From the NCBI RefSeq assembly GCF_012927305.1, contig NZ_JABBGH010000001.1:1054001-1118000 (forward strand): a stretch of 64,000 bases of DNA, in the 5' to 3' direction. The translations under genes were made by a program, and so were the position numbers. The notes beneath the pieces are model-generated. The model had not been told where the DNA came from and made no database searches. It was given only the letters and a program-made list of their open reading frames with translations. The DNA comes from Hymenobacter polaris (lineage in GTDB: Bacteria > Bacteroidota > Bacteroidia > Cytophagales > Hymenobacteraceae). Positions 1,088 to 37,823 of the stretch are shown one piece after another (position 1 is the stretch's first letter; the number at the start of each line of letters is the position of its first letter).

Positions 1088-2629
1088 CTACCTAGGGGCG
1101 AACTTCTTGCGCAGCTCCATTATTTGGGCCTTGAACTTATGGTCCGAGTCAATCAGGTCCGATACCGTTTGCACCGAGTGGATGACCGTGGCGTGGTCGC
1201 GGCCACCGAAGTGGAAGCCGATGGTTTTGAGCGAGTGACTGGTAAACTCCTTGGTGAAGTACATGGCCACCTGCCGGGCCGTCACAATTTCCTTCTTGCG
1301 GGTTTTTTCCTTCAGTAAGCCCACCGCCACGCCGAAATAGTCGGCCACCGTTTTCTGAATAAAGTCAACGTTTACTTCAGCCTCCACCTCTTCAATGATG
1401 TGGCGCAGGGCCTGCTTGGCCATTTCCAGGTCGATGTCGCGGCGGTTGAGGCTGCTCTGGGCCATCAGCGACACCAGCACGCCTTCCAGCTCGCGCACGT
1501 TGGTGGGCACCGAATGCGCCAGGTACTCCACCACCTGCGGCGTGATTTCCATGCCGCTCTGCTCGGCCTTATTTTGGATGATGGCGATGCGCGTCTCGAA
1601 GTCGGGGCTTTGCACGTCGGCCGTCAAGCCCCACTTGAAGCGCGAGAGCAGGCGGTCTTCCAGGCCGCTGAGCTCGCGCGGGGGCCGGTCGCTAGTCATG
1701 ATAATCTGGCGGCCGCCCTGGTGCAAGTGGTTGAAGATGTGGAAGAACATCTCCTGCGTCTTACCCTTGTTGGCCAGAAACTGCACGTCGTCCAGAATCA
1801 GCACGTCCACCAGCAGGTAGAAGTTGGCGAAGTCCTGCACGGCGTTGCGCTGCAAGCTCTCGATGAACTGGTTGGTGAACTTCTCGGCCGACACATAGAG
1901 CACGAACTTCTCGGCGTTGGTGACCTTGATGTGGTTGCCGATGGCCTGCACGAGATGGGTTTTGCCCAAACCCACGCCGCCGTACACCATCAGCGGGTTG
2001 AAGGCCGTGGTGCCGGGCTTGTTGGCCACCGCGAGGCCCGCCGAGCGCGCCAGCCGGTTGCAGTCGCCCTCCACGTAGTTCTCAAACGTGTAGGAGTCGT
2101 TGAGCTGCGAGGGCACGATGTTGCGGTCCATCGTTTTGGCCGCATCGAAGGGGTTGCGCAGGGTGACGGCCGGGGCGGCCACGGCGGCCGCCGCCCCGCT
2201 GCCGGCCGCGCCCGCGTAGCCACGGGCGGGCGCGCCGCCGGCGCGCGGCGGCACGGCCGGCGCCCCGGTACCGGTGTAGCCGCGGGCAGGGCCCGGCGCG
2301 GCGGCGGGGGTACCGGGGGCTGCCTTGCGGGCGGGTGGCAGGTGCATGGCCCTAGGGGGTGCCTGGGCGTTGCCCTGGTCCACCACCACGCTGTACTCCA
2401 GGCGCCCCTCGGGGCCTAGTTCCTGGTAAATGGCTCGCTTTAACTCTTCTACGTACTGCTCCTCCAAGTATTCGTAGAAGTATACGCTCGGCACCTGGAT
2501 GGTGAGGACTTTGCCTTGCAGCTCGACCGGCACGATGGGCATGAACCAGGTGCGGAAACTTTGCTCGCCCACTTCGGCGCGAATCACGCGCAGGCAGTTA
2601 GCCCAAACGGAGCGAAAATCCTGCGACAT
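1088..2629 (-). CDS. dnaA: chromosomal replication initiator DnaA
   Basis: DnaA binds DnaA boxes at the origin and opens DNA for replication. The 513-residue product shows all four regions: an N-terminal helicase-interaction domain (1-85), a linker, an AAA+ domain with Walker A GGVGLGKTHL (about 217-226) and Walker B LILDDVQFL (about 276-284), and a C-terminal DNA-binding domain with the signature GGRDHATVIHSV. The linker (about 88-158) is unusually long and made almost only of Ala, Gly, Pro and Arg. ATG 2629 is the natural start because the family N-terminus begins there. No cluster of DnaA boxes is visible in the 145 bases upstream, so the origin is probably elsewhere. Confidence 0.97.
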   Translation of the reverse strand: MSQDFRSVWANCLRVIRAEVGEQSFRTWFMPIVPVELQGKVLTIQVPSVYFYEYLEEQYVEELKRAIYQELGPEGRLEYSVVVDQGNAQAPPRAMHLPPARKAAPGTPAAAPGPARGYTGTGAPAVPPRAGGAPARGYAGAAGSGAAAAVAAPAVTLRNPFDAAKTMDRNIVPSQLNDSYTFENYVEGDCNRLARSAGLAVANKPGTTAFNPLMVYGGVGLGKTHLVQAIGNHIKVTNAEKFVLYVSAEKFTNQFIESLQRNAVQDFANFYLLVDVLILDDVQFLANKGKTQEMFFHIFNHLHQGGRQIIMTSDRPPRELSGLEDRLLSRFKWGLTADVQSPDFETRIAIIQNKAEQSGMEITPQVVEYLAHSVPTNVRELEGVLVSLMAQSSLNRRDIDLEMAKQALRHIIEEVEAEVNVDFIQKTVADYFGVAVGLLKEKTRKKEIVTARQVAMYFTKEFTSHSLKTIGFHFGGRDHATVIHSVQTVSDLIDSDHKFKAQIMELRKKFAPR

Positions 2630-35537: not shown

Positions 35538-36680
35538 TTACTCGGCCAGCGCAGCCTTCACTGCGGCGGCTAGCTCTTCCAAGTTGCCACCGCCAGCATG
35601 AGTGGCTGCCACGCGCCCGTCTTTGCCAATAACGTAGTAGCGCGGAAAGCTGTCAACGCGGTAGGTGCGGGCAATGGCGGCAGTACCCACGAGATTAATA
35701 TACCGGGCGTGCTGGCGCTGCAAAATTCCTTTCGCCCGCTCGGTATCGGCGGCATCGGTATCCAGCAAAATACCCAGCACCACCAGCTTGCCCAGGTGCT
35801 CATCTTGCAGGCGCTGCACGTGCGGCATCGAGCCGATGCAGGGAGCGCAGCTGGTTTCCCAAAAGTCCAGCAATACTACCTTGCCCCGGTAGCTGCTCAG
35901 CTTTACGAGGGCCTGGGCAAAGCTGCGCAGTTCGAACGCGGGGGCGGGCTGCGCCACCAGCGTGGGAGTGGGCGCGGGCGGCGGAGCTGGCAGCTCGGCG
36001 GCGTAAGTAGTTAGAAAATCGGGCTGCTGCAAATAAGCTGCGTCGGCGGGCGCATTCAAGCGTAGGTCCGTCAGCAGCTTGGTGGTCGTCCAGCGGCGCC
36101 CCGAGCGCACCATGGTAGTGCGGACCGTGCGCGGCAGGCCGGTGGCAGCGTCGAGCACCAGGTAAGTATGCTGGTTTAGCACATCTGCCTGGGGCTTGTC
36201 GGGGTAGCGCAAATGCAGGGTGCCGCCACCACCTGGCACGGGCTGGTACGTTACGCTTTGGTAAGTAGAGTCGATGGCGAGCAGCTCCTCCACCAGCATT
36301 TGGCCGGCGGGGCTTCCTAGCACGCTCGGTGCGTAGGGCGCGGCAGCCAGCTCAAACGTCTTGGCTTTGTCATCCAGTTCGAAGCCCACGTTGCCGTTGT
36401 AGTAATAGGTAGCCGCATTATCTACTTGGCTAACTCGAAACGCGGCCCCAAGCAGTTTGCTGCCCGCGCGGCGCTGCAACACCGCCCGGCCGCGATGGTT
36501 CCAGCTATCCCCATTGCCAAAGGTATCAATGCGCTGCACGGTGTAGCCAATGAGCGGGGCAGCTTGCAGACGCGCCTGGTACTTGGCTAGCACCTCGCGA
36601 GCGGTTTGGCCGGCGGCCGGCCGGCTTAAATTTCCCATGCCAAGCAGCAGCGACAGCGCAAGCAAACGAACATTTCTCAT
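35538..36680 (-). CDS. exported TlpA-like thioredoxin-fold protein
   Basis: A 380-residue protein with a signal peptide (NVRLLALSLLLGMGNL). An N-terminal domain (about 25-220) resembles lipoprotein-localisation-type beta folds, with strings such as DKAKTFELAAAPYAPS and HLRYPDKPQADVLNQHTYLV. The C-terminal TlpA/AhpC-type domain carries the CxxC motif WETSCAPCIGSMPHV, then SFPRYYVIGKDGRV with the cis-proline. This fusion is common in Bacteroidota and suggests a periplasmic thiol-disulfide oxidoreductase. Upstream, on the same strand, is the small transcript with a strong terminator, so this gene probably has its own promoter or is reached by read-through. Confidence 0.88.
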   Translation of the reverse strand: MRNVRLLALSLLLGMGNLSRPAAGQTAREVLAKYQARLQAAPLIGYTVQRIDTFGNGDSWNHRGRAVLQRRAGSKLLGAAFRVSQVDNAATYYYNGNVGFELDDKAKTFELAAAPYAPSVLGSPAGQMLVEELLAIDSTYQSVTYQPVPGGGGTLHLRYPDKPQADVLNQHTYLVLDAATGLPRTVRTTMVRSGRRWTTTKLLTDLRLNAPADAAYLQQPDFLTTYAAELPAPPPAPTPTLVAQPAPAFELRSFAQALVKLSSYRGKVVLLDFWETSCAPCIGSMPHVQRLQDEHLGKLVVLGILLDTDAADTERAKGILQRQHARYINLVGTAAIARTYRVDSFPRYYVIGKDGRVAATHAGGGNLEELAAAVKAALAE

Positions 36681-36764
36681 GCGGCAGGGTAAGTAGCGTA
36701 GGCAGCGCTAAGGTAGGCAGCAAACTTCCCGCACCGCCAGCAACGCTGGTGCCTCGGCTAACCT

Positions 36765-36829
36765 AAAAAAACGATGCCCGGTCGGCCTTAGCGAACCGCT
36801 CACGCGTGTCGCCGGGCCAACCGGGCATC
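36765..36829 (-). terminator. strong intrinsic terminator
   Basis: A 15-bp stem with one mismatch (GATGCCCGGT/ACCGGGCATC plus CGGCC/GGCCA inner pairs) is followed on the minus strand by CG and seven T residues. It closes the small transcript. Confidence 0.85.
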
Positions 36830-36945
36830 TAATCCTTCAAATCTTACCGAGCGGCAACGCTGGGGTACAGCGCCGGCGTCTCACAGTAAGACCTGTCCAA
36901 CGAAAGGGAGCCGCGATACCGCAGTGCCCTCCGCCGAGCTGTGTG

Positions 36946-37017
36946 TTAGGCGAGTACGGCGGTGACGCGTACTACATTGGACAGGCTCGGCAGGATTTGG
37001 TTGGGACTACTAGACAT
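36946..37017 (-). CDS. 23-residue ORF with near-perfect Shine-Dalgarno sequence
   Basis: ATG 37017 to TAA 36946. The peptide begins MSSSPNQILPSL and ends VVRVTAVLA; it has no obvious signal or repeat. The bases upstream read AAGAAAGGAGGTACAAAATG, a long match to the anti-Shine-Dalgarno end of 16S rRNA with 5-base spacing. Such a site is exceptional in Bacteroidota, where most genes lack one. It could be a leader peptide, a functional micropeptide, or a sensor of free anti-SD. No homologue is recognised. Confidence 0.5.
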   Translation of the reverse strand: MSSSPNQILPSLSNVVRVTAVLA

Positions 37018-37115
37018 TTTGTACCTCCTTTCTTTAAAGTTCCACATAACCTCGTTCGCGCTTCCCAGCAACTTAGGGCGGCTTGAGCGGGGCCGTAGCA
37101 CTCGCTACTGAGTGG

Positions 37116-37146
37116 TAAAGTTAGCAGCGCGCGCTTAGGTTCAAAA
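37116..37146 (-). promoter_or_regulatory. Bacteroidota-type promoter for the small transcript
   Basis: On the minus strand TTTTG (37142-37146) is followed 18 bases later by TAACTTTA (37116-37123), close to the TTTG and TAnnTTTG consensus. Confidence 0.5.
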
Positions 37147-37382
37147 TATTTTAGCTTTTCCTAGGCCCCGGCCTGGCCCTAGGGCGCCACCGTCCTCAGT
37201 ATCAGTCCAATTATTTTAGCCAGGCGGCCGCCGCCAAAAGCGGCCCAGTGGCGGGGCTCTAGGGGGCAGCCGAAACGGCCACGTGCATTCTGGCCGTATA
37301 ATTGCCTGGCTAAAACCGAGCAGGTTTTGGCACTACTCTTGTCCAACCTTTGTATCCTCATTTATTCTTCACCTTCTACCCC

Positions 37383-37823
37383 ATGTATAAATCGCTGTTT
37401 TTCGTGCTGGCCCTGTGGCTTAGCGCGGCTTGCGGGGCCGCCGCCCAAACCCTCTCCCCCCTGGGCGTGTGGACGAACGCGGACAAAAAAGCCACCTTCG
37501 AGATTTACAAGTGCGGCGACAAGCTGTGCGGCAAAATCGTGAGCCTGACCGTGCCCAACGACCCGGCCACCGGCAAGCCTAAGCTCGATACCCAAAACCC
37601 CGACCCCAAGCTGCGCAACCGCCCGCGCCTAGGCCTGCCCTTCATGCAAGGCTTTAGCTACGAAGACGATAACAAGTGGGACAACGGCAAGATATACGAC
37701 CCGGAGAGTGGCAAAACCTACTCGTGCTACATGAAGATGGAAAGCGCCAACTCGATGGAAGTAAAAGGCTACATCGGCTTCTCGCTCATTGGCAAGTCGC
37801 AAACCTGGACGCGGGTGAAGTAA
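37383..37823 (+). CDS. exported DUF2147 protein
   Basis: A 146-residue secreted protein with signal peptide YKSLFFVLALWLSAACGAAAQ after ATG 37383. The mature domain matches DUF2147: LGVWTNADKKATFEIYKCGDKLCGKIVSL, then a DPKLRNRPRLGLPFMQGF segment, WDNGKIYDPESGKTYSC and the end GYIGFSLIGKSQTWTRV. The family forms a small beta-barrel, widespread and of unknown function. The two cysteines near CGDKLCG probably form a disulfide. Confidence 0.9.
   Translation: MYKSLFFVLALWLSAACGAAAQTLSPLGVWTNADKKATFEIYKCGDKLCGKIVSLTVPNDPATGKPKLDTQNPDPKLRNRPRLGLPFMQGFSYEDDNKWDNGKIYDPESGKTYSCYMKMESANSMEVKGYIGFSLIGKSQTWTRVK

Follow-up and report, generated by a model that had tools for sequence, protein, structure and literature searches.

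The minus strand of the window, the 64,000 nt stretch of Hymenobacter polaris DNA that we have analyzed, contains a small structured mRNA with a full-length Shine-Dalgarno (SD) sequence, widely conserved and apparently undescribed. We call it the micro-mRNA. Judging from sequence comparison it is encoded by an independent gene, separate and unannotated, whose strongest invariant is a full complementarity to the hidden 16S tail. This comparison establishes the gene, its conservation, a coding-type selection, its structure and its SD complementarity. The mechanism which we propose for it is plausible.

The locus in Hymenobacter polaris

An earlier note on this DNA had placed a promoter, a leader, a reading frame, a long-range stem and a terminator, in this order, on the minus strand at 36765-37146, and direct reading finds all of them. 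The motifs TTTTGAACC (37146-37138) and TAACTTTA (37123-37116) are presumably Bacteroidota-type promoter motifs; the loose expression TTGAAC...ACTTTA is found in 61 of the 61 genus-type loci. From these letters, transcription would start at about 37112-37108, which gives an RNA from about 37112 to 36765 (348 nt as folded). A 5' hairpin, GUAGC-GAGU-GCUAC (37095..37108), lies at the presumed transcript start. It forms part of the minimum free energy (MFE) structure of a 325 nt piece and is absent from that of the 348 nt transcript; many, not all, other loci have a hairpin of different sequence about as far upstream of their SD. Between this 5' domain and the long-range helix lie the extended SD AAGAAAGGAGGT (37034-37023) and the start codon ATG (37017-37015). 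The 23-codon frame MSSSPNQILPSLSNVVRVTAVLA occupies, with its stop, 36946..37017, the TAA being at 36948-36946.

The long-range helix, P1, begins inside the frame. Its first part, P1a, is formed by UAGUCC (codons 3-5, 37004..37009) and GGAUUA (36835-36830); in P1b and P1c the 5' strand CAAAUC-C-UGCCGAGC (36985..36999) pairs with 36852-36838. The P1 3' strand, GCUCGGUAAGAUUUGAAGGAUUA (36830..36852), directly abuts the stem of a terminator-like hairpin, which with its T run covers 36765..36829 in the transcript fold; the run has seven T and ends at 36765. A simple terminator scan of the window listed none at 36765..36829. A further hairpin, GUACGC / G.CGUAC (36954..36972), lies within the frame and has compensatory changes. 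Outside the transcript, a perfect 12 bp inverted repeat, TTTTAGCCAGGC / GCCTGGCTAAAA (37214-37225 and 37304-37315), is found between the promoter and a divergent DUF2147 gene.

The earlier note saw in AAGAAAGGAGGT a long complement of the 16S 3' end. This is correct: the 16S of the same genome reads GGATCACCTCCTTTCT and forms with it an 11 bp helix of -17.7 kcal/mol. The pattern AAGGAGGTN3-9ATG occurs 12 times in the whole window genome, versus 9 for a reversed control, which indicates no general use of SDs there. The longer AAGAAAGGAGGTN2-8ATG has a single occurrence in this genome; across the class, the reversed control of this loose pattern is often matched too, so by itself it is a weak pattern. 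A chance SD is ruled out by conservation.

No Rfam family reaches its gathering cut-off for the element in the window. A lax search of 36600-37400 gives isrG on the terminator hairpin, with 20.2 bits versus a cut-off of 100, and two weaker matches. Among ten relatives, only a cobalamin riboswitch reached the cut-off; it is found at 1191-1417 (+) of locus L119, just downstream of an RNA of the f23 type in genome G631. The matches listed from the open-access literature include no description of the element in the text they present.

Conservation of the frame, the SD and the fold

The absence of the frame, the SD and the stem from close relatives would have spoken against the earlier note; all three are conserved. 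A DNA search matched 64 of 99 genomes, including 61 of the 61 of the window's genus, with one copy each, 75–92% identical to the window's (the window itself aside). Three of 38 genomes from other families matched, aligned at the SD and start only. The expression GAAAGGAGGTN2-8ATGTCNAG matched 42 of 291 genomes of the order: 31 of the 32 of the genus, nine loci of the same RNA in other genera and two long transposase-like frames; its reversed control gave none among the matches listed. The sole genus genome missed, G023, reads ATGTCTGATAGT. A stricter expression, AAAGAAAGGAGGTN2-7ATGWCTAGTN0-1CC, which excludes the window's genus by design, was run on a collection of 84,980 species. It found 38 stretches, and all 38 are the micro-mRNA element, with an open frame of 18–22 codons, mostly MSSP..ILS...TGV. 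By record title they are all Cytophagales or other Bacteroidota: Chryseolinea, Ohtaekwangia, Adhaeribacter, Cesiribacter, Nafulsella, Xanthocytophaga, Anditalea and many MAGs.

In the order, a covariance model, R1, matched 35 of the 291 genomes, among them all four of genus g36 and all five of g34. Strict filters, together with distance, made R1 overlook the copy in the window and 17 of the 32 genomes of the genus, so that these tallies are lower bounds. In the class it matched 8 of 395 genomes: three belong to family f23, two to the genus, and the others hold the loci L233, L236 and L238. The first of these loci is a convincing new one, from family f51 of a further order, with 22 codons, MSNSDKTLSVKQISNLSVVKMN, behind AGAAAGGAGGG. 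The other two have neither SD nor frame and were judged chance matches. In the order of f23, the SD pattern occurs in 5 of 22 genomes, all five with 19-codon frames such as MTSSSCYSINFITCKPTHR. The element thus occurs in the window's genus, in other Cytophagales and in two orders besides.

Some matches to the SD pattern were dropped: L111, L121 and L097, each lying against a larger gene on the opposite strand (by eye); L095, a long frame; L108 and L110, which are bS21; and L087 and L088, long transposase-like frames. The last two (genomes G285 and G264, family f11) lie behind GAAAGGAGGTCTTTTTATG and have an inverted copy, AACCTCCTTTC, upstream, so that their SD could sit in a hairpin: This may be another use of an SD in the SD-poor Bacteroidota. 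An expression combining SD and start found 121 distinct places, which became 118 loci after removal of three long unrelated frames. Many of these loci are closely related, so the counts that follow are not independent, and their denominator includes L112, an unrelated locus with a 3-codon frame.

The SD is nearly invariant. We find AGAAAGGAGG in 114 of the 118 loci, and the variants pair at -16.8 to -20.2 kcal/mol, all scored against the 16S tail of the window genome, with one exception. This is L212 (G138, a 75% complete genome), which keeps ATGTCTAGTCCCAAG and a 20-codon frame and reads GAAAGGTGCTATG without GGAGG, which may reflect an assembly error or a real loss.

An open frame of 18–23 codons follows the SD in 117 of the 118 loci. 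Read in the +1 frame, the first stop falls within 18–23 codons in only two of the 118, and in the +2 frame in none. The 117 start codons are ATG (111) or GTG (6); the GTG loci, from two genera, retain both SD and frame. For the 26 distinct frames of the genus, dN/dS is 0.27 in frame (0.15 for codons 2-15), whereas the two other frames give 1.98 and 1.48. Codon 13 is TCC, TCG or AGT, Ser each time. RNA structure may add to this dN/dS pattern; the exchange of AUG and GUG and the length of the frame are not consequences of RNA structure. The micropeptide gene suggested in the earlier note is thus strongly supported as selection for an open frame (dN/dS, 117 of 118 frames), a support that does not extend to detection of a peptide. 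Two peptides of the family gave no Pfam match at E <= 0.01, and such short peptides are hard to match.

The covariance analysis proposed in the earlier note reveals a covarying long-range helix which holds the frame from codon 3 on. The 348 nt transcript (37112-36765) folds at -153.2 kcal/mol, with z = -5.26, and none of 100 shuffles equals it. Mean fold z is -4.0 in a genus subset (15 of 44) and -3.3 in Chryseolinea-type loci. RNAalifold was run on alignment A3 of the genus, 44 rows with two of genus g37. It gives UAGUCC/GGAUUA, CAAAUC/GAUUUG, UGCC.GC/GC.GGUA, the hairpin within the frame and 3' hairpins: 46 pairs, 8 of them with compensatory changes. A mini-hairpin at the start, GGAGGU/AUGUCU, is nearly invariant and is broken in f23 loci which start with AUGACU. 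If it is left out, 41 pairs remain, with 97.8% of cells paired; two-sided cells number 73, versus 20.4 ± 4.6 when shuffled and at most 14 when slid. P1a is paired and invariant in all 44 rows, and present in 61 of 61 genus-type MFE folds. As it never varies within the genus, it is uninformative on covariation there; in g34 and g36 AGUCC becomes AAUCC opposite GGAUU. In P1b/P1c, two-sided changes are found at 2 of 13 pairs in the 44-row genus alignment, and in g37 CAAAUC/GAUUUG is replaced by CCAUC/GAUGG (by eye). One pair of the hairpin within the frame is A-U, C-G or U-A, with 20 two-sided cells of 44.

Outside the genus, 22 single-sequence folds of 23 Chryseolinea-type loci share a hairpin which holds the frame from codon 3; L156 differs. 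The structure model used for these loci was taken from one member's own fold. In the 49-locus model alignment, 29 of 34 pairs have two-sided changes, with 141 cells, versus 43 ± 5.6 when shuffled and no more than 48 when slid. This alignment is fitted to the model, and a fitted alignment (A4) is biased towards it. The unfitted MAFFT alignment A2 retains 13 of 35 pairs with two-sided changes (32 cells versus 11.4 ± 2.6 shuffled). Automatic RNAalifold on A2 gave a different structure, without the hairpin and with a covariation term of +0.05; we think that misaligned arms are the cause. Counting further pair types is a weaker measure than the others, equalled by 24 of 500 shuffles on A2 and 39 of 500 on A3.

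The long-range stem of the earlier note consists of CCTGTCCAA (RNA CCUGUCCAA, 36985-36977, the first position also belonging to the P1c strand) and TTGGACAGG (RNA UUGGACAGG, 36900-36892, by direct reading). It is real but variable in its letters. A helix is present there in 60 of 61 MFE folds and its duplex energy is better than the shuffled mean in all 61 genus-type loci, and the exact letters are found in only 15 of the 61. UAGUCC/GGAUUA and CAAAUC/GAUUUG are the more telling pairing. The terminator, clear in the window fold, is not uniform: A stem that ends in front of four or more T is found in 27 of 61 genus-type loci, and termination in the genus may be less uniform than the window implies.

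Genomic context and possible functions

One option in the earlier note was a leader controlling the TlpA-like gene. In the window this gene, with a Redoxin domain, lies downstream of the RNA and also on the minus strand (35538-36680), which is what a cis-acting leader or attenuator of this or another downstream gene would call for. Against it, a terminator-like hairpin intervenes, and TlpA is downstream in one of 30 genus loci, the window only. There it sits between the RNA and an NlpC/P60 gene, from either a local insertion or a loss elsewhere. The NlpC/P60 gene region matches 28 of the other 29 genus loci, among the matches listed; all 30 have the divergent DUF2147 gene upstream. Flanking genes are common to the genus and Adhaeribacter. 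The neighbours vary between genera: 44 loci of other genera give 76 neighbour proteins, 38 of them singletons, and these loci have a DUF2147-like protein upstream in four cases and an NlpC/P60-like one downstream in five, both at L144 and L214. The RNA is therefore a gene of its own. A cis-acting leader is contradicted for the family; it could only be a recent local use, and we give it hardly any credence.

Among the three options of the earlier note (leader, micropeptide gene, sensor of ribosome state), the last appears to fit best with the anatomy and with the bS21/rpsU precedent. According to McNutt et al. 2023 (PMC9976891), the anti-SD of Bacteroidia ribosomes is hidden in a pocket of bS21, bS18 and bS6, and ribosomes lacking bS21 translate an rpsU mRNA with an extended SD, whose pairing has 9–13 bp and -14 to -21 kcal/mol. 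The paper also indicates that extensive pairing marks rpsU, that SD control in Flavobacteriales seems limited to it, that the rpsU criteria are satisfied by about 20% of Cytophagales, and that the retention of an intact yet hidden anti-SD has so far been linked chiefly with rpsU and rpsR. For SD-less starts, PMC8710568 describes reduced secondary structure.

Neither in the window genome nor in ten further carriers among the Cytophagales does GGAGG precede the start of rpsU (by eye; G418 and G720, whose true rpsU start was not located, are left out of this comparison). The RNA is not simply exchanged with an SD on rpsU: Two f23 genomes, G651 and G688, have both (L197 and L198, with rpsU SDs GGGAGGT and AAAGGAGGT), and G631 carries the RNA without an rpsU SD.

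We propose the following mechanism. Ordinary Bacteroidota ribosomes, with their anti-SD under bS21/bS18/bS6, would start on unstructured, SD-less sites. They would seldom enter the closed frame of the micro-mRNA, because it is too structured for the usual SD-less initiation. A 30S subunit with a free 3' tail, lacking bS21 or immature, would anneal over the whole SD, melt P1 and translate the peptide, and translation would unzip the hairpin. When ribosomes with an exposed anti-SD are present, the RNA would thus give rise to a micropeptide, an opened RNA or both. That the RNA is transcribed and translated, depends on an exposed anti-SD and has such an output is what we infer. Anti-SD-exposed 30S subunits as the intended readers would be the simplest reading, because rpsU has no GGAGG here, the SD of the RNA is as strong as the published extended SD of rpsU and the frame is closed by structure. 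By analogy with rpsU in Flavobacterium johnsoniae, a frame opened mainly by such subunits is the most likely mechanism, to which we give slightly less than an even chance. Arguments against it are the two f23 genomes that combine the RNA with an rpsU SD, the copy L212 without GGAGG, the automatic fold of A2 without the hairpin and the part which RNA constraint may have in the dN/dS values.

A more elaborate version is doubtful: a sensor of ribosome state which resets itself, opened only by anti-SD-exposed 30S and closed again by its own anti-SD mimic. Many loci have in the 3' arm an ACCUC complementary to GAGGU of the same RNA; translation would release this mimic, which could close the SD again. 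CCTY is found within 75 nt 3' of the stop in 67 of 118 loci. The internal pairing with the SD is modest: 71 of 118 loci are below the shuffled mean, and 41 of the 58 outside the MSSSP type. As the SD is nearly invariant, covariation is uninformative on this pairing, and an internal anti-SD closing the SD is speculation. If true, this sensor would be a gene other than a ribosomal protein gene controlled through an SD in an SD-blind phylum. The conservation of the SD might also weigh against any reading as an anti-SD sensor: The letters themselves, beyond pairing, could matter.

The simplest alternative, which we consider rather unlikely, is a micropeptide gene in which the peptide is the product, the fold only tunes or delays translation and the state of the ribosome is irrelevant; the role of the strong SD would simply be to open a structured start. 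The length of the frame, its start codon and the purifying selection in frame agree with this alternative, as does the MSS(S)P..IL N-terminus common across Cytophagales genera. Nevertheless, most of the conserved N-terminal codons double as P1 strands, and the peptide changes much between orders. The apical AGGU/ACCU is read in different frames (T-G-V in Cytophagales, R-stop in f23, by eye), so it is an RNA element. A normal SD is also not expected to be read by Bacteroidota ribosomes (PMC8710568). The same coding-type selection and the AUG/GUG exchange argue against a 30S sponge or scavenger, which would bind and hold anti-SD-exposed or immature 30S with translation incidental. A complement of the whole free 16S tail and a stable fold directly after the start are what such a sponge would have; we find it improbable. 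A trans-acting sRNA, whose 3' arm would be freed by translation of the frame and pair with other mRNAs, is very unlikely. In its favour is the strong conservation of the 3' arm, which lies next to the terminator-like hairpin; P1 pairing largely explains this conservation.

As for its use, the micro-mRNA would serve as a native single-copy reporter of anti-SD exposure in Cytophagales, also in genera without an rpsU SD, and as a compact RNA for toeprinting and structural studies. A structured RNA family (no Rfam match) and a micropeptide family (no Pfam match for the two peptides tried) come with it.

Comparison with known systems

The closest known system is the autoregulation of rpsU (bS21) in F. 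johnsoniae, as presented in the cited passages of McNutt et al. (2023, PMC9976891). Both have an exceptionally long SD in an SD-poor phylum and a short transcript, and the 11 bp and -17.7 kcal/mol of the micro-mRNA lie within the ranges of rpsU. Unlike rpsU mRNA, the micro-mRNA encodes no ribosomal protein, with only 18–23 codons (rpsU is elsewhere in the genome, on G000:C3), its frame is folded into a covarying helix, and it occurs in Cytophagales whose rpsU has no SD.

In leader-peptide attenuators, such as trp leaders, a short frame overlaps RNA helices and is followed by a terminator. The micro-mRNA also has a short frame which overlaps helices, followed in the window by a terminator-like hairpin (with a T run after the stem in 27 of 61 genus-type loci); unlike them, it has no conserved downstream gene and stands as a separate gene. 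Dual-function bacterial RNAs combine an RNA with a small protein, and a structured RNA of about 350 nt with a small selected frame resembles them. The micro-mRNA differs from these RNAs in having no Rfam match and in that its frame itself forms the conserved helix.
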